A stretch of 26,102 nt of DNA from a virus: positions 1 through 26,102 of the IMG/VR virus record IMGVR_UViG_3300006224_000035. One strand, written 5' to 3'. The notes under the pieces were generated by a model. It was given only the letters and a program-made list of their open reading frames with translations. It ran no database searches and had not been told where the DNA came from. Shown in pieces: positions 11,724 through 25,234 of the stretch. How positions within the stretch are numbered: position 1 is the first letter of the stretch; every line of letters begins with the position of its first letter. The position numbers were made by a program, and so were the translations under genes.

Positions 11724-12101
11724 CTAGTCCTCTGCTGGTTCACCAGCCGTCTTGTAATCCGCAGTGTAGCGGTGCGCTACGACGATGCGTGCCGGGTACT
11801 TGTCAACAGGCAGCCTCGGGTACACAATCGTCTCGTCCTGCCACACGTACTTGCTGCGGTACTTGAGGCCAAGAGCCTGCTTGACGTGATCCCATAGGGT
11901 TGCCGGGTACGACGCCAGCAGCCGAGGCTCGGTGTTCTCGCCCAACAGCCTCAGATGAGTGCTGAGAGCCATTGCTTGCCGGTGAGCAAGGTACTCTATG
12001 CTTGTGTCTACCGCGCCTATGATGTCCCGCTCCATCAGGAGCCCCACCGTGTAGCGGTGGACCGTCAACCGGACTTCCTCAGTCTTGTACGCAGTATCCA
12101 T
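11724..12101 (-). CDS. Hypothetical protein, last gene of leftward operon
   Basis: This is a 125-residue product. ATG at 12101 overlaps the stop of the exonuclease gene (TGATG) and follows GGAGGCAAG, which fixes the start. The protein is soluble-looking, with mixed helix and strand (EEVRLTVHRYTVGLLMERD, then the AVDTSIEYLAHRQAMALST helix). The second half has 'YPATLWDHVKQALGLKYRSK', which could be a DNA-contacting basic helix, and the acidic end is GEPAED. No family is recognised. It ends one base from the convergent metallopeptidase stop. Confidence 0.7.
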   Translation of the reverse strand: MDTAYKTEEVRLTVHRYTVGLLMERDIIGAVDTSIEYLAHRQAMALSTHLRLLGENTEPRLLASYPATLWDHVKQALGLKYRSKYVWQDETIVYPRLPVDKYPARIVVAHRYTADYKTAGEPAED

Positions 12102-12862
12102 CACTTGCCTCCGATGAGAGTCATCACGTTCTTGTTGCCCTTGACCACGCTGTAGCGACCCCGCAGCCACGTCCCGCAGCCCTGACACTGGAACCGCTGA
12201 TAAGCCTGCGTCTTAGTCCTCACCAGCCCTCGGGCTTGGAGCTTATGCGAACCGCACGTCGGACACGACGGCTTCCCGCCATCCCCGTCAAACAGGGGAG
12301 TGTTGGGATGCGTGTCGATCCACGGCAGCAGAGCGTAGTACAGTTCCTCAAGGGTCTGGATGTCGCCCATGTTGTACTCGCGCATCTCGGACCACGCTTT
12401 GCGCTTGCCGTTCATGCAGTCGATCCACAACTCGTGGCCGCGATTGCTAACCTTGCGGGTCAGCTTGAGTTCCTTCGCAAGATGGTCCATCTTGTTTGAG
12501 GCGAACCGAAAGCGCCGCTTGGCTACCTTGAGCAAGTCGATGCTGTGATACGGAGCAGGCGGAGCGAGACGGTACTTGACGAACTCCCGATTGAGAGTAG
12601 GCAAATCGAACCGTTCCCCGTTATAGGTCAGCACCGCATCCGCCTCATCCAGCAGGACGTGCATAGCCTTGATGGTAGCCTTGTGCCCGTGGTGGAACTC
12701 GGAGCGGAACAGGGGCTTACCCTTCGATCCCAGCCAGCGTGCTGAGAAGCACATGACCCGGCCGGTGTCGATAATCTGGTTGATGCCGATGTTCTGCTTG
12801 AACAGCCCCCACGCGTGGGCTGTGATCGGCGCAGTCTCAATGTCAAGAGCAAGTGTTTTCAC
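12101..12862 (-). CDS. DEDD-type 3'-5' exonuclease (RNase H fold) with C-terminal zinc ribbon
   Basis: This is a 253-residue product from GTG 12862. The DEDDy motifs are present: Exo I Asp7-x-Glu9 in 'LALDIETAP', Exo II around Asn81/Asp86 in 'LTYNGERFDLPTLN', and Exo III Tyr163-x3-Asp167 in 'REYNMGDIQTLEELY'. Residues ~200-229 form a Cys4 zinc ribbon (Cys200-x2-Cys203 and Cys226-x2-Cys229), which would bind nucleic acid. The family is close to predicted phage PolB-like exonucleases. It would degrade or process DNA or RNA ends during replication or repair. The frame stays open upstream, but the first 35 codons shadow a tiny membrane ORF. The start codon overlaps that ORF's stop (GTGA). Confidence 0.85.
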   Translation of the reverse strand: MKTLALDIETAPITAHAWGLFKQNIGINQIIDTGRVMCFSARWLGSKGKPLFRSEFHHGHKATIKAMHVLLDEADAVLTYNGERFDLPTLNREFVKYRLAPPAPYHSIDLLKVAKRRFRFASNKMDHLAKELKLTRKVSNRGHELWIDCMNGKRKAWSEMREYNMGDIQTLEELYYALLPWIDTHPNTPLFDGDGGKPSCPTCGSHKLQARGLVRTKTQAYQRFQCQGCGTWLRGRYSVVKGNKNVMTLIGGK

Positions 12863-12951
12863 TGCACAGCGCCCGTGACTGCGAAGATCAAGGTGGCGGC
12901 GGCCCATGCCGTCAGCACCATCACGGCTAGGATTGTTAACGTAAACTTCAT
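12859..12951 (-). CDS. Candidate 30-residue membrane peptide
   Basis: This small frame starts at ATG 12951 and ends in a TGA that overlaps the exonuclease GTG start (GTGA), the same coupling used at many junctions here. The peptide begins MKFTLTILAVMVLTAWAAAT and continues LIFAVTGAVQ, almost wholly one membrane span. Against it, no Shine-Dalgarno site precedes the ATG, and the gene lies head-to-head with the rightward holin gene 14 bases away. If it is not a gene, this stretch is the leader between the leftward and rightward starts. The function is unknown. Confidence 0.4.
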   Translation of the reverse strand: MKFTLTILAVMVLTAWAAATLIFAVTGAVQ

Positions 12952-12965
12952 GATGGGAGACATAC

Positions 12966-13385
12966 ATGGCCCTCGCGATTATTGAGAAGATCCTCGGTGG
13001 CGTAGCAGCCCCCGTGGTGGACTATTTCAAGGTGCGTGCTGAGAACGCGTCCCGTGAACGCCTGCGGAAGATCGAACTGGACGATGCTATTCATCGCAGG
13101 AAGGTCAGCCTCGTTACCGAGGGACTGCACGCCGACATGAACTGGGAAGTCGAGCTAGCCAAACAGGCTGCCTCGTCGTGGAAGGATGAGTACACTCTCA
13201 TCGTCGTATCCATCCCAGCCATTCTAGCGTTTGTCCGCACGTCGTTCCTCGATGGTCCCGCAATCGTCTCGGCAGGGTTTGCTGCGCTGGGCAATACGCC
13301 CCTGTGGTATCAGACAGTGCTCATAAGCCTGTTCCTCGCCACGGTCGGCATCCGCTGGTGGAGACGGTCGCTCTCCGACACGTAA
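12966..13385 (+). CDS. Holin-like membrane protein, rightward gene inside leftward operon
   Basis: This is a 139-residue product. A charged N-terminal half (ERLRKIELDDAIHRRKV) is followed by two hydrophobic spans at ~76-92 (YTLIVVSIPAILAFV) and ~113-130 (LWYQTVLISLFLATVGI) and a basic end (RWWRRSLSDT). The layout, with 'SSWKDE' before the first span and 'GFAALGNTPLWYQ' before the second, resembles the phage proteins annotated as 3TM-type (GTA-like) holins. GGGAGA lies seven bases before ATG 12966. All adjoining genes face the other way. It is the most likely partner of the lysozyme at 10747 and would permeabilise the inner membrane. Its 3' 162 bases overlap a leftward frame, and a rightward terminator follows at 13725. 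Confidence 0.75.
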   Translation: MALAIIEKILGGVAAPVVDYFKVRAENASRERLRKIELDDAIHRRKVSLVTEGLHADMNWEVELAKQAASSWKDEYTLIVVSIPAILAFVRTSFLDGPAIVSAGFAALGNTPLWYQTVLISLFLATVGIRWWRRSLSDT

Positions 13386-15328: not shown

Positions 15329-15545
15329 GGTGAAGGCTCTTGATCTTGTTGAACACGCGGCGCAGGACGTAGCTGCGGACCACTGAAATGATCGTGAAGA
15401 TGATTCCGACGTGGAACGCTTGGGCCCCGGTGATGTTGAATCCGAATAACGGGAAGATCAGCATGTTGGCTGTCCAGTTAATCGCAAAGCCGATGGCGAC
15501 GTTGGCCCACGACTCAATCCACGACCCTAGCCGCGTTTGGCTCAT
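15318..15545 (-). CDS. DUF7220-like membrane protein
   Basis: This is a 75-residue product. ATG 15545 overlaps the upstream stop (TGATG); the open frame upstream is a shadow. The sequence 'SQTRLGSWIESWANVAIGFA', then 'INWTANMLIFPLFGFNITGAQAF' and 'FTIISVVRSYVLRRVFNKIK', matches the phage family I know as DUF7220: two membrane spans (~12-32 and ~40-58) around a conserved PLFGF loop, with a basic 'SYxLRRxFN' end. The function of the family is unknown. It may affect the envelope in infected cells. Confidence 0.8.
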   Translation of the reverse strand: MSQTRLGSWIESWANVAIGFAINWTANMLIFPLFGFNITGAQAFHVGIIFTIISVVRSYVLRRVFNKIKSLHHAY

Positions 15546-15751
15546 CAGTGCAGGCCCTTGCCGAGCGTGGCCTGCTGGCCGGTAACTGCCGAAGGCGTCT
15601 TGGCAATCTCCTGCTGGAGCCGCGCCAGTGCCCTGCGGGCCATCCACTGACTGCTGACGATGCGACCGGCATAGAACGAGCCTGCCACAAACTGCCAGAT
15701 GAAGCCCAGCACCACGAACGGGTACGAGGCAATGATAATCACATAGCGCAT
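15545..15751 (-). CDS. Small membrane protein with a single N-terminal span
   Basis: This is a 68-residue product. The start at ATG 15751 is fixed by GGAGGACACCTAATG, identical over 15 bases to the site before the 27-residue peptide at 22836-22919. Residues 3-30 are a membrane span (YVIIIASYPFVVLGFIWQFV), followed by a basic helix (WMARRALARLQQEIAK) and a polar tail. It lies between the glycosyltransferase and the DUF7220-like gene. Function is unknown. Confidence 0.7.
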   Translation of the reverse strand: MRYVIIIASYPFVVLGFIWQFVAGSFYAGRIVSSQWMARRALARLQQEIAKTPSAVTGQQATLGKGLH

Positions 15752-15763
15752 TAGGTGTCCTCC
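15751..15763 (-). promoter_or_regulatory. Ribosome-binding site shared with a second membrane-peptide gene
   Basis: GGAGGACACCTA lies immediately before ATG 15751, and the same 12 bases plus ATG recur before ATG 22919 (22920-22931). Both precede short genes that start with Met-x-Tyr-Val and a membrane span. A match of this length outside coding constraint is unlikely to be accidental, so either the site is strongly selected or the two starts share ancestry. Confidence 0.6.
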
Positions 15764-16674: not shown

Positions 16675-16967
16675 TACGCACCTTCTCCACCTTCCGCCAG
16701 TCGATCTGCTGCCCCCTGAGACACGCGGTAACGGCTCGTCTCAAGAGCCAGCTTGGCTTCGGCCGTGCGGGCGTTGCGTCGGTACTTGCCTTTGCGGGGC
16801 ATGTCTCGGATGGCTCGCTCAATGGGGGAGAGCCGATAGGTGAATCCAACGCGTTTGATGTTTCCATCCTTGTCCTCTCCGGTGCCTGTCGAGCAGTGCA
16901 GCACGATGCGGCGCTTGACGCGGCGCTTCATGTCGGCACAGATGGCTTTCCATTCGTCGCGTGTCAT
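16674..16967 (-). CDS. Small basic hypothetical protein, 97 residues
   Basis: ATG 16967 is preceded by GGAGGAACTACC and overlaps the stop of the previous small gene. The frame runs open a further 64 codons upstream only as a shadow. The sequence is strongly basic (DMKRRVKRRIVLHCST, AIRDMPRKGKYRRNARTAEA) with an Arg/Lys-rich middle and a Gly-rich acidic end. The basic helices could bind nucleic acid. No family is recognised. Confidence 0.65.
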   Translation of the reverse strand: MTRDEWKAICADMKRRVKRRIVLHCSTGTGEDKDGNIKRVGFTYRLSPIERAIRDMPRKGKYRRNARTAEAKLALETSRYRVSQGAADRLAEGGEGA

Positions 16968-17116
16968 GGTAGTTCCTCCACTGTCCAGCCTTTCTGCTGA
17001 CAGTATGCACGAATCTGCGCCAATGTCCAGCCCTTCATGTACTTGATGATGGGGGCTACAGCCTCTCCGCGCACGATGCCCGCAACGAAGTGCGGAGCTA
17101 TGATACGCAGCATCAT
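16964..17116 (-). CDS. Small protein, 50 residues, common phage type
   Basis: This short gene starts at ATG 17116 (tandem ATGATG), overlapping the endonuclease stop (ATGA), and ends overlapping the next ATG (ATGA). The sequence 'RIIAPHFVAGIVRGEAVAP' followed by 'IIKYMKGWTLAQIRAYCQQK' and a GW ending follows a pattern I know from many phage genomes ('IIAPHFxAG...APIxxYMxGW...xxYCxxKGW'). The last ~20 residues look like a small helix-turn-helix, which might contact DNA. Its role is unknown. The coupling at both ends is good evidence that it is translated. Confidence 0.75.
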   Translation of the reverse strand: MMLRIIAPHFVAGIVRGEAVAPIIKYMKGWTLAQIRAYCQQKGWTVEELP

Positions 17117-20415: not shown

Positions 20416-21032
20416 CAGTCGTCCTCCCCTTCAAACTCGGAATCGTCATCGTCATCCGCCTCGACCACCGGCTGCTTAACGGCCTTCTTCTTGGCCTTCG
20501 GCTGCGGTGCAGGCTCGTCCTCGCCCTGCGCGTCGGCATACGCACGCTCGGTCGCACGCGTCACCGCTCCACCCGTGCTGATGTCCTCCAGATAGAGCGC
20601 AGTGTATGCGTCCACCAGAGCTTCCACAGCCGCCAACTTCGCGCTCGTCTTGACAGGCAGGACCACTGCCGTATTCGCCAGCGCGATCTGCACGAACAGC
20701 AGGGCGTCCTTACGCGCCGACTGGTAGTGGATCGACGCCTCACGCTCGGCGTTGTTCCCCCCTCGGCCGCCCGAGTAGTTGGCACCGGACGCAGCAGCCG
20801 GGGCCTTCGCGGGCTCAACCCGCGTCGGCGGGCCCTTGACGCTGGCGCTCTTGCCGTCGTGGTTCAACTCAGCTTCGAATTCGATGAAGTTGCCCGGTTC
20901 CACGATACCGGCACCCCGGTTCTCGTCCATCCGGTAATAGACTGGATCGTTCTCCAGCCGGAAACTCCACAGAATCTTGCGACCCAGATTCTTGTCGTAG
21001 AGCTTAAAGACCTGACCTGTGACCTTGCTCAT
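20415..21032 (-). CDS. Single-stranded DNA-binding-like protein with acidic tail
   Basis: This is a 205-residue product from ATG 21032; the gene overlaps the polymerase end by 29 bases. The N-terminal ~70 residues (SKVTGQVFKLYDKNLGRKIL, then WSFRLENDPVYYRMDENRGAG and FIEFEAELNHDGKSASVKG) are beta-rich with aromatic and basic residues, as in an OB fold. A linker rich in Pro/Ala/Gly follows, then a helical part 'REASIHYQSARKDALLFVQI', and an acidic end 'EADDDDDSEFEGEDD' after a Lys-rich patch. Acidic C-termini are the hallmark of SSB and T7 gp2.5, where they bind replication partners. Unlike gp2.5 it lacks a terminal Phe. Its place next to the polymerase fits. Confidence 0.75.
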   Translation of the reverse strand: MSKVTGQVFKLYDKNLGRKILWSFRLENDPVYYRMDENRGAGIVEPGNFIEFEAELNHDGKSASVKGPPTRVEPAKAPAAASGANYSGGRGGNNAEREASIHYQSARKDALLFVQIALANTAVVLPVKTSAKLAAVEALVDAYTALYLEDISTGGAVTRATERAYADAQGEDEPAPQPKAKKKAVKQPVVEADDDDDSEFEGEDD

Positions 21033-22836
21033 AGCTGTGACTTTCCTCCGTTCCTTCGCCCCAATGGGTGCCAGTCGTGATCCCCACACCCAGCGGGACG
21101 AACATGGTGTGGTTGTAAACCTTCTCCAGATAGGAGTACGTATCGTCTAGGAAGCATGATATAGCAATCCGCTTGTACCTGTCAACATCTTTTTCTGCAA
21201 CATCGGCCACAACCGAGTCATGCACCGTGTTGAGAATGTGGGCGTCCACCGCAAAGCGAGTGCGCCAGAACGTGTACACCAGAGAAATCGGGATGATGTC
21301 AGCCGTGGCGAAGGACTGAACAGGCAGGTTCCTGACCTTGTTGGATCCTTCGATGTACCCACTAGGCGAAATCTTCAAGTCCCAATAGGCTATCATCCCA
21401 CTTGGCAGGCGCAATTGGCCTGTCCGCAGTACCTCCGCTACCCACTTCTCCTGCGTAGCGGTCATTTCAGCGTACCGCGTCTTGAACGCCTGATAATAGG
21501 CAACCTCTCTCGGGGTGCCACTCTTGCCCTCGGAGAATAGCGGCTTGAACGTGTGCCGCTTGGCGGCCGTCCGGATAGCCTTCGTCACTTCCTCGGGCCC
21601 GATCTGCTTCAAGATGGTGGCTGTGTACGTGTGAGGATCGTGGTCAGGGTTCAGGATGTCGGCCAACACTTGCTTGTCGTGGCCCAAGTCCCCGGCTACC
21701 CGGAACTCCAGCCCGGAGCCGTCAACCTCGACCATGACTCCCTTGCCACGAAACAACTTCTTGAACTCCCGGGCCATGTTCTGAAACTGCACGCCACGGG
21801 TCTTGCCGTCCTTGAACTTGAGCCGCCTCGCAGTGGACGCAAGACGGTGCGTTTTCGTGCGGCACTGATTCAGGTTGCCCACGAACGTACCGCCATGCTC
21901 GGCGCACACTCCAGCGAAGAACTCTAGGCTCTTGGAGAGCGCAGCAGACACCTTTGCGTACTTGGCTTGCAACTTGACGAACTCTCGTTGCTCGTCAGTC
22001 TTGGCCTTGAGGCTAGCAAGCACGTCCTTGTTGGTAGAGCGACGGCCTGTTTTCGTCCGGATAGGATTGCCCCTCCGGTCAGTGGCCTCATCGAACTTTA
22101 GTACGTCGTACAGGAACTCTGCCAGTTGAATAGGCGACTTGATGTTGCGCCCACCCGACATGGCAACAAGTTGGCTCTCCACTTCGGCCAACTCCTGCCT
22201 AGCCTTGACGACCTCCGCCTCGACCCGCTCAGGATCCAGCGTCATGCCCCTGCGCTCTATGTGCGCCAGCACCGGGGTCAGGATGCAGCGAGTGAACATG
22301 GCCGGAAGCAACCCATTGTCCTGCATGTAGCGAAGCTGCCGCATGAACAACTGGCCTGTCGTGTCCACGTCGCGCAGTACGCGTCGCTCCAGCAAGTGCT
22401 GTGGCATCTGCGACGGGCACACCCCGCCTTGCATGAGGGCGTCGATTACGCGTTCCTTGCCCAGCAGGCCCCAGCGTTTGCACACGCTGTCTAGGTCAAG
22501 AGGAACTCTCTGGTTGCCATAGATCACGTACTCCGCAATCATGGTATCCCATACCAGATACTCCGTGATGTCCACCCCGGAGCGTATCAGCCAGCCGAGT
22601 TCAAACTTGGCATTGTGGGCTACGAGGATGCCTTTCTTCGGCATCACACGACGCAGCTTCGACACGTCGATCAGACCAGCCGGATGTCCCTCCCGCTTGA
22701 GTGCGCCCACCACCAGATGATTCTCTGGCACGCGGGAATCCCCGAACTCAAGATTCGTCGTCTCGAAATCCAAGACGAAGAACGGCTCGCTAAAGTACGC
22801 GGCCGGGTTCGGGTCTTTGAGGTAGTACGGGAGCAT
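21004..22836 (-). CDS. DNA polymerase, family A, with 3'-5' exonuclease domain
   Basis: This is a 610-residue product, compact compared with T7 gp5 (704). The exonuclease domain (~1-180) shows Asp23/Glu25 in 'VLDFETTN', Glu79 in 'AHNAKFELGWL' where most enzymes have Asp, and Asp156 in 'RRVLRDVDTTG', with Arg152 at the usual Tyr position. Polymerase motif A is Asp372 in 'VEVDGSGLEFRVAGD'. Motif B (O-helix) is Arg422-x3-Lys426-x3-Phe430 in 'RTAAKRHTFKPLF', with Phe434/Ser435 instead of Tyr-Gly. Motif C is His539-Asp540 in 'NTVHDSVV', with Ser instead of the common Glu. It would copy the phage genome with the helicase and primase upstream. ATG 22836 overlaps the stop of a 27-residue gene (TGATG). 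Confidence 0.95.
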   Translation of the reverse strand: MLPYYLKDPNPAAYFSEPFFVLDFETTNLEFGDSRVPENHLVVGALKREGHPAGLIDVSKLRRVMPKKGILVAHNAKFELGWLIRSGVDITEYLVWDTMIAEYVIYGNQRVPLDLDSVCKRWGLLGKERVIDALMQGGVCPSQMPQHLLERRVLRDVDTTGQLFMRQLRYMQDNGLLPAMFTRCILTPVLAHIERRGMTLDPERVEAEVVKARQELAEVESQLVAMSGGRNIKSPIQLAEFLYDVLKFDEATDRRGNPIRTKTGRRSTNKDVLASLKAKTDEQREFVKLQAKYAKVSAALSKSLEFFAGVCAEHGGTFVGNLNQCRTKTHRLASTARRLKFKDGKTRGVQFQNMAREFKKLFRGKGVMVEVDGSGLEFRVAGDLGHDKQVLADILNPDHDPHTYTATILKQIGPEEVTKAIRTAAKRHTFKPLFSEGKSGTPREVAYYQAFKTRYAEMTATQEKWVAEVLRTGQLRLPSGMIAYWDLKISPSGYIEGSNKVRNLPVQSFATADIIPISLVYTFWRTRFAVDAHILNTVHDSVVADVAEKDVDRYKRIAISCFLDDTYSYLEKVYNHTMFVPLGVGITTGTHWGEGTEESHSYEQGHRSGL

Positions 22837-22919
22837 CAGTCGTTAAAGAGAGAAAAGAGCAATCCGCCAATCACATAGCCTGCCACGAAGCAAACCAGAA
22901 ACAGGAGTACGTATTCCAT
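22836..22919 (-). CDS. 27-residue membrane peptide between helicase and polymerase
   Basis: ATG 22919 follows GGAGGACACCTA and overlaps the upstream TAA (TAATG). The TGA overlaps the polymerase start (TGATG). The peptide starts MEYVLLFLVCFVAGYVIGG and continues LLFSLFND, essentially a single membrane span with a small-residue groove (AGYVIGG). A strong ribosome site and perfect junctions on both sides make it a convincing gene despite its size. It has no recognised function; membrane-active regulation of a host system, or tethering of replication, are possible roles. Confidence 0.7.
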   Translation of the reverse strand: MEYVLLFLVCFVAGYVIGGLLFSLFND

Positions 22920-23209
22920 TAGGTGTCCTCCAGTTCGTCGGTGTAGCCGTCCACCAGTTCCTCGGAAGTGGGTTCGTCGTCCAGTGAGTCCAGAGAGCAG
23001 GGCCGCCCCTCGGATGTCACGTAATACTTCGCCCCGTGTTCACGAAGCAGCCTGATGGTGTCGATCAGGTTGACGATGATGTAGCTCGGCACCTTGCAGG
23101 AGAAGGCTCCCCAATTCTTGTGCTGTAGCACGAGATTCTGCAAGCCGTCAACGTCGTCCTCGGACACGACGCCATCAAGCACCTGTTTGAAAGATAGATT
23201 TTCAGTCAT
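22919..23209 (-). CDS. Small acidic protein, 96 residues
   Basis: ATG 23209 overlaps the helicase stop by 8 bases. The N-terminal two thirds form a compact helical region (NLSFKQVLDGVVSEDDVDGL, then VPSYIIVNLIDTIRLLREHG). The C-terminal ~25 residues are strongly acidic (EPTSEELVDGYTDELEDT). Its final codons double as the ribosome site of the next gene. No family is recognised. An acidic helical protein between helicase and polymerase could be a partner of a DNA-binding protein, but this is inference. Confidence 0.7.
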   Translation of the reverse strand: MTENLSFKQVLDGVVSEDDVDGLQNLVLQHKNWGAFSCKVPSYIIVNLIDTIRLLREHGAKYYVTSEGRPCSLDSLDDEPTSEELVDGYTDELEDT

Positions 23210-24398
23210 GTGATTTTACCTTTGAGCTAGGCTCGTTGATGGCTACCGTGAAGTAGCCGTGTTTACCGGACGCCTTGTTCTTACAGACCGAGATAATCCT
23301 CTGGCCTGCGGAGCGCAGTGTATCATTAACGCCCATCCCAAGCAACACGTCGGCCGCGCCCGGAATTCCCGTGTTGCTGCTGTCGATGTCGCCATCGTCC
23401 AGCACTGCCTTGTTGCGAGCCGAGTCACCGGCCTGCGTCGTGCTAATAGTCACGATGTTGTTCCGCTTGCCGATGGCGCGGATCCCCTGTGCGTTGTGGT
23501 CAAGACCCTGCGTATAGTTATCGGCCTTGCCGATGCGGAGGTTCCGCAACTGGTCAACGATAAGGATGCTAGGCTTGTGTTGCCGTACCATCCCTTCCAA
23601 TTCCTTGAGAGAGCCCGGGGATGCCTCGCGCAGTATGAGGTTGCCAAGCCCCCTCTTGAGCGCAGCCCGCACGGCACTGTCTGTATCCTCGCGGATACGG
23701 TCTGCGGTGCAGTTGAGGCAGTTCGTCATCGCACGCACGGCCAAGTCCCGCACGTCATCCTCGTTGATGACGTACAGCACCCGATGGCCGCGCATGGCGG
23801 CAGACACGCCTATAGACAGGGCAAGTGCTGTCTTGCCAGCCTCGGGCCTCGCGAACAGCACGACGTTGTGCCCGGGTAAGAGACCCCCTCCTAGATAGTC
23901 GCTCAGGGCGCGAGGGGAAATCCGAATACGGCTGCTGTTGTCCAGCCGTGACGTGACCACATTGGCCCAGTCCATCGCCTCGGTGTCCGTATCCACCGGC
24001 ACTGCGAGGGCCCGCCACTCGTCAATGAGCGTGTCTACCTCATCCTTCGGGGAACGGCTCGCCAGTGCATGAGCCAGCTTGTCCTGCACGCGTTGGCGTG
24101 CGACAAGACGCAGCATTTCCTGCACGTTGGCAGCGGACACCGCTTCTTCCTGCAACCGCTTGATTAGACCCTCTACCTGTTCGCGGTGCTTCGGGTTTGC
24201 GATGTCCTCGCACGCGTACCGCGTAACGATCAGCGGATCGGCATAGGCTACCGTGCGATCCAATTCATAAAACTGGCTGATGCCCTGCCACACTGCCACG
24301 AGTTCATCGGGCAGTACCTCGGCTTCGCCACTCGCGGCAATCGCCTCATAGGCACCCCGGCTCTTGAGAGCCGCAGCCAGCAAACCGAACGGGCTCAA
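23202..24398 (-). CDS. Replicative DNA helicase, DnaB / T7 gp4 helicase-like (RecA fold)
   Basis: This is a 398-residue product starting at TTG 24398, which overlaps the primase TGA as TTGA. The N-terminal ~140 residues are helical, as in DnaB N-domains. The C-terminal RecA core has Walker A Ala183-x4-Gly-Lys189-Thr190 in 'FARPEAGKTAL', an acidic motif 'VINEDDVRDL' (~210), Walker B Asp282 in 'ILIVDQLRNL', and the sensor Gln322 in 'STTQAGDSA'. 'GIPGAADVLLGMG' (~344) also matches SF4 helicases. It would unwind the fork as a ring and pair with the separate primase encoded just upstream. In T7 both activities are one protein (gp4), so here they are split. Confidence 0.9.
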   Translation of the reverse strand: MSPFGLLAAALKSRGAYEAIAASGEAEVLPDELVAVWQGISQFYELDRTVAYADPLIVTRYACEDIANPKHREQVEGLIKRLQEEAVSAANVQEMLRLVARQRVQDKLAHALASRSPKDEVDTLIDEWRALAVPVDTDTEAMDWANVVTSRLDNSSRIRISPRALSDYLGGGLLPGHNVVLFARPEAGKTALALSIGVSAAMRGHRVLYVINEDDVRDLAVRAMTNCLNCTADRIREDTDSAVRAALKRGLGNLILREASPGSLKELEGMVRQHKPSILIVDQLRNLRIGKADNYTQGLDHNAQGIRAIGKRNNIVTISTTQAGDSARNKAVLDDGDIDSSNTGIPGAADVLLGMGVNDTLRSAGQRIISVCKNKASGKHGYFTVAINEPSSKVKSHD

Positions 24399-25234
24399 AT
24401 GCGGCCCCGAACGAGCGTAGCAAACTGCTCTTGTTCATTCATGTTCTTGAAGTCCTTTGGCATGTACAGTACATGGACAGGGCGCGTAGTGTAGCACGAT
24501 AGGCGCTGTTTGACAATGCCCGCGTCTCGCTCCGCTCCCGGGTCCAGTGCGACAATGAAACCGCTTGTGGGACTGTAGGTTATGTCGGCGCGCACGTCGT
24601 CGTGCAGGAATGTGCCGAGCAAGGCTACAGCCCTGCGACCCCACGAATTCAAAGCTGCGGCTGATAGGCAGTCCTCTACGATCCATGTCCCATGATCGGA
24701 GTTGGACCCGAAATAGTTGTATAGGCTGGCTGGGGTTTCCTTGTGCGAGCGCACTACCTTGCGCCCGGGACCATCGCGGCGGGTCTGCACTCCAATGCGC
24801 TGCCCGTTGCGATTGTGCAATAGCCACACTGTTTCGTCCGGCCAGTCCGCATTAGCGTACAAGCCGATTTGATAGGCTGGCCGCTTGAACTCTCCGAGAC
24901 ATGCTTGATCGTACTTGCCCTGCCAGTATGCCGACAGGTCGCGGCGCAGTGCGCCGGTCCACGGCTTCGGGATCGGCACCTTGCGGATGTCATCCACAGT
25001 GGACACGTAATCGCCAAGAGCAAGACGGCCTCTCTTGCCGCACGTCGCACGATGGCAAACGTACAGAGCGTAGTGATTAAGACGCGTGATGTAGAACGCC
25101 TCGTCTTTGCTACGGCCGCCTCCGCAGAACGGACAGGACACGCGTGCGGTGTCCCCGTCCGGTAGCTCCGATGCCGCTAGGCGGATGGCAGCACGGGCTT
25201 GTGTGATCTTCGGGTTCTTCATGTTGTGCATCAT
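24395..25234 (-). CDS. DNA primase, zinc finger plus TOPRIM
   Basis: This is a 279-residue product, the first gene after the leftward promoter. The N-terminal zinc finger has Cys34-x2-Cys37 in 'VSCPFCGGG' and Cys60-x4-Cys65 in 'YVCHRATCGKRG'. The TOPRIM core shows Glu187 in 'TWIVEDCLSAAALN' and 'VALLGTFLHD', then Asp231 in 'FIVALDPGAERDA', where the DxD pair is reduced to Asp-Pro-Gly. It would make short RNA primers at the fork and work with the helicase encoded next. GGAG lies several bases before the tandem ATGATG, so either ATG could be used. It is shorter than DnaG and matches the primase half of T7 gp4. Confidence 0.9.
   Translation of the reverse strand: MMHNMKNPKITQARAAIRLAASELPDGDTARVSCPFCGGGRSKDEAFYITRLNHYALYVCHRATCGKRGRLALGDYVSTVDDIRKVPIPKPWTGALRRDLSAYWQGKYDQACLGEFKRPAYQIGLYANADWPDETVWLLHNRNGQRIGVQTRRDGPGRKVVRSHKETPASLYNYFGSNSDHGTWIVEDCLSAAALNSWGRRAVALLGTFLHDDVRADITYSPTSGFIVALDPGAERDAGIVKQRLSCYTTRPVHVLYMPKDFKNMNEQEQFATLVRGRI

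Follow-up and report, generated by a model that had tools for sequence, protein, structure and literature searches.

A predicted 27-residue membrane peptide encoded between a helicase-linked gene and the DNA polymerase gene of a phage

Small genes in the interval between helicase and DNA polymerase are known from phage T7, where genes 4.2, 4.3, 4.5 and 4.7 are located between the primase-helicase gene 4 and the polymerase gene 5. According to their annotation, genes 4.3 and 4.5 are nonessential, and gp4.5 has a host-directed job, the inhibition of the Lon protease (PMC11323111). In the Zobellviridae (Vibrio phage VpV262 and relatives) the genes are arranged in the order primase, helicase, small gene(s), polymerase. 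Membrane proteins connected with phage replication have been described for phi29, namely p1 and p16.7, the latter interacting with the terminal protein and single-stranded DNA (PMC4974454). Coupling of overlapping gene pairs by termination-reinitiation at TGATG and TAATG joints has been tested in E. coli and H. volcanii, and is established in E. coli for overlaps of 1 and 4 nt (PMC6728339, PMC10666635). When the internal ribosome site was removed, reinitiation in E. coli fell by 60-90% for three gene pairs and was lost altogether for one (PMC6728339).

We analyzed a virus record of 26,102 bases, referred to here as the window. Its plus-strand arm shows matches to tail, amidase and endolysin families, and its minus-strand arm carries replication and nuclease genes, among them the genes listed in Table 1; no Rfam family and no tRNA were found in the window. 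Among named phages, those with the most similar polymerases (38-41% identity) are Vibrio breoganii phages, VpV262 (Zobellviridae) and Stenotrophomonas phage StenR_269. Polymerase and helicase are 38% and 28% identical to those of VpV262, which makes the replication module Zobellviridae-like, an assignment that covers the module and not the whole virus. The polymerase start at 22836 is right, since the conserved N-terminus LPxFLxxxDPxxYxS begins at the second codon. Joints between genes on this strand show an overlap in 21/23 cases and an overlap of exactly 1 or 4 nt in 15/23; the tight fit of the peptide gene is therefore ordinary in the operon. Besides the polymerase (21004-22836), the minus strand encodes a second exonuclease-domain protein (12101-12967), matching PHROG 403 (DNA polymerase exonuclease subunit) with an E value of 4e-86.

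Table 1. Features of the window discussed in the text.
Feature	Position	Strand	Remarks
Primase-like protein	24395..25234	-	short match to PHROG 47
DnaB-like replicative helicase	23202..24398	-	PHROG 19, E 1e-36
96-aa small protein gene, upstream of peptide	22919..23209	-	stop overlaps peptide start (TAATG); protein without family match
Ribosome site and start block GGAGGACACCTAATG	22917..22931	-	15 nt identical to start of gene 15545-15751
27-aa single-span membrane peptide ORF MEYVLLFLVCFVAGYVIGGLLFSLFND	22836..22919	-	ATG start, 27 codons, TGA stop
Family-A DNA polymerase, 610 aa, downstream of peptide	21004..22836	-	Pfam PF00476, E 5e-33; PHROG 17
68-aa membrane-protein gene	15545..15751	-	15-nt start block and blocks of 11 and 10 nt common with peptide gene

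The initial annotation had described a 27-residue membrane peptide ORF with a GGAGG site between the helicase-linked gene and the polymerase, and ORF, site and hydrophobicity were confirmed. The ribosome site reads CTGGAGGACACCTAATG, with GGAGG located 7 nt 5' of the ATG. Overlaps with both neighbours had been described as well and are present; their size, given as one to three bases, had to be corrected, as the TAATG joint with the 96-aa gene and the TGATG joint with the polymerase gene each overlap by exactly one base. The peptide contains one GxxxG motif (GYVIG), and its best 19-residue Kyte-Doolittle mean is 2.66. With a length below about 65 aa, one hydrophobic span and a ribosome site, the ORF fits the phage single-span membrane micropeptides, which are a kind and not a homologous family. 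Comparison of the peptide with PHROG and Pfam returned no family above the cut-off, and weak Pfam matches, such as the one to FtsX (E 0.026), most likely reflect composition only. A tblastn search of 50,697 phage records yielded a single chance-level match (E 3), and an exact DNA pattern spanning the peptide start had no match in viral contigs.

Relatives were obtained by alignment-led searches of viral contigs, with polymerases up to 53% identical to that of the window; single-sequence searches that started from the helicase or the 96-aa protein confirmed none, and phage records yielded no relative of the replication region at the nucleotide level. Where the polymerase is 46-53% identical, the relatives keep the upstream 96-aa gene next to the polymerase gene and lack the peptide. 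Homologs of the 96-aa protein in L011, L012, L013 and L015 are 40-47% identical over the aligned part and always lie between helicase and polymerase, and a further homolog occupies the same place after the helicase in L250. In three of these contigs the homolog overlaps the polymerase gene directly, with nothing in between (L011, TAATG; L012, ATGAGTAA; L015, ATGA). In L250 the same TAATG joint opens into a different, unrelated 59-aa ORF with a CxxC pair, which is bridged to the polymerase by a 21-aa hydrophilic ORF (L250:2886-2951) with ATGA and GTGA overlaps; this small ORF looks like a pure translational relay. L013 has extra sequence of ambiguous coding in the interval. The peptide was not found beside the polymerase in any of the five, and no second carrier was found among the relatives. 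Because the relatives differ here by a direct joint, by the 59-aa and 21-aa ORFs or by the extra sequence of L013, the helicase-polymerase interval is a variable slot, and the peptide would most simply be a gain in the lineage of the window. A small protein encoded elsewhere in the window (16964-17116, minus strand; RIIAPHFVAGIVRGEAVAPIIKYM...) has an apparent relative directly before the polymerase in L137 (about 590-735), and the small gene in the pre-polymerase slot of that contig appears to be another such case.

The window contains one further copy of the 15-nt start block GGAGGACACCTAATG, located where the 68-aa membrane-protein gene begins, 7 kb from the peptide gene. The regions with common blocks are 15545-15763 and 22836-22931 on the minus strand. 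Among random pieces of this strand, 0.6-1.4% show a comparable cluster of three blocks (here 15, 11 and 10 nt); the argument was made post hoc. The match suggests a duplication or recombination between the two genes, and hints that the peptide gene may derive from the 68-aa membrane gene of the same phage.

No Shine-Dalgarno site precedes the polymerase start (CTCTTTAACGACTGATG). A hairpin hiding this start was not found; around the peptide-polymerase joint the RNA folds less than its shuffled versions do (z +2.5). Neither a promoter nor a terminator was detected at this joint on the minus strand. Since the polymerase has no ribosome site and the joint is weakly folded, polymerase initiation most likely draws on ribosomes that have just finished the peptide. 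Stop-start overlaps of the 1- or 4-nt type are present at both joints of the peptide ORF, and coupling of polymerase translation to that of the peptide is plausible from the sequence. In the relatives an overlap of this kind leads straight from the upstream gene into the polymerase gene, and therefore the peptide ORF would pass the coupling on rather than being its origin.

We consider it reasonably probable that the ORF is genuine and translated: a lineage-specific accessory gene in a variable slot, which encodes a single-span micropeptide residing in the inner membrane and relays ribosomes to the polymerase. Ribosomes would enter the peptide ORF through its GGAGG site as well as by reinitiating at TAATG; those finishing at TGATG would reinitiate on the polymerase, so that the ORF would act as a translational relay replacing the direct joint of the relatives. 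The peptide would be inserted into the inner membrane, where it would most likely have a dispensable, host-directed job and not one in replication. Points against this explanation are the uninformative codon usage, the absence of a close relative with the peptide, the often weak reinitiation where an internal ribosome site is missing, and the post hoc nature of the block match.

Two other readings concern the ORF itself. It could be an untranslated spacer that is open and hydrophobic by accident: chance alone gives an open frame this long in 38-43% of cases, and codon usage does not separate the ORF from non-coding sequence, being uninformative at 27 codons. The GGAGG at ideal spacing and the exact one-base joints at both ends speak against an accident, however, and so does the span, since a comparable hydrophobicity was reached by 0/200,000 random sequences of window composition and by 0.35% of those with the composition of the ORF itself. 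We regard a spacer as very improbable, and the ORF is probably a real gene. It could, on the other hand, be kept only to supply the polymerase start with ribosomes at a fixed rate, with a jobless peptide and incidental hydrophobicity. The polymerase start without a ribosome site agrees with this, and the 21-aa hydrophilic ORF of L250 shows that tiny ORFs of any composition can occupy the slot; but the hydrophobicity of the peptide is far above composition-matched chance and the relatives join the polymerase to the upstream gene without any relay, so that we think it unlikely that delivery of ribosomes is the whole function.

A role at the replisome was also weighed. The initial annotation had raised the anchoring of replication at the membrane, and had named beforehand non-conservation in relatives that keep the junction as the refuting observation. 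This is what was found: the nearest relatives retain both neighbours without the peptide, L250 having an unrelated ORF in its place, and the conservation with replication genes across relatives that marks the anchor kind is not seen for the peptide. An anchoring peptide would bind the coupled polymerase or the replisome and hold it at the membrane, as has been proposed for p1 and p16.7 of phi29 (PMC4974454). The position of the peptide gene, adjoining and overlapping the polymerase gene, is in line with this, although overlaps are the rule in the operon. Further evidence in favour comes from a count of single-span ORFs of at most 65 aa directly before the polymerase versus other genes, made with the window excluded and with gene calls from a simple home-made scoring scheme instead of a standard gene finder. 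Such ORFs were found at 8/98 related junctions versus 31/921 other genes (p 0.027, nominal like the other p values of this count, as the cut-offs had been relaxed once the second set was known). The difference comes from the first set, of 59 junctions (6/59 versus 18/553, p 0.02), and was not reproduced by the second set alone (2/39 versus 13/368, p 0.43), so that no enrichment is claimed. The eight pre-polymerase ORFs are dissimilar in sequence and show no clear homology. Common ancestry of the recurrent micropeptides was rejected, as alignment scores were only marginal and GxxxG was not enriched (8/29, p 0.10). We find no support for a role in replication or in anchoring the polymerase, and give an anchor very little credence. 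Nor does it seem credible to more than a slight degree that the pre-polymerase micropeptides (L018, L019, L025, L059, L061, L093, L152, L178 and the window) represent a recurrent, repeatedly replaced device by which a span of any sequence brings the replisome, or the synthesis of the polymerase, to the membrane. The 31 single-span micro-ORFs away from the polymerase are spread over the replication regions of related phages, and 11 of them have tight joints on both sides. The anatomy of the window, with another sequence, is found in L178 (3424-3498), where a 24-aa membrane span lies directly before the polymerase with TAGTG and TAATG joints.

Under the preferred reading of an accessory membrane micropeptide, the ORF adds one more unannotated phage micropeptide and marks the helicase-polymerase interval of these phages as a variable accessory slot, as in T7. 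The peptide gene appears to be one among many small accessory genes that can replace each other outside the replication machine, and it leaves the picture of phage replication unchanged. A 27-codon ORF before a polymerase without its own ribosome site is a clean test case for coupling.

Compared with the coupled pairs tested so far, the joints are of the same type; the difference is that no ribosome site is present inside the upstream ORF here, and that coupling is predicted from the sequence. The likeness to phi29 ends with the size of the peptide: with a span of 27 residues, hardly any of it would protrude from the membrane to bind DNA or polymerase. The Zobellviridae have polymerases that are 37-41% identical to that of the window and the same gene order, but their small gene before the polymerase encodes an unrelated soluble protein of 55-94 aa and not a 27-aa membrane peptide. 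T7 gene 4.2 (L248 1489-1827) overlaps the end of the helicase gene and has a strongly hydrophobic start (Kyte-Doolittle 2.33), and T7 may thus also have a membrane protein in this interval. The small T7 genes show no sequence relation and are longer, promoters lie inside the T7 interval, and gene 5 does not overlap its neighbour. With these differences, the nearest parallel to the interval of the window is T7.
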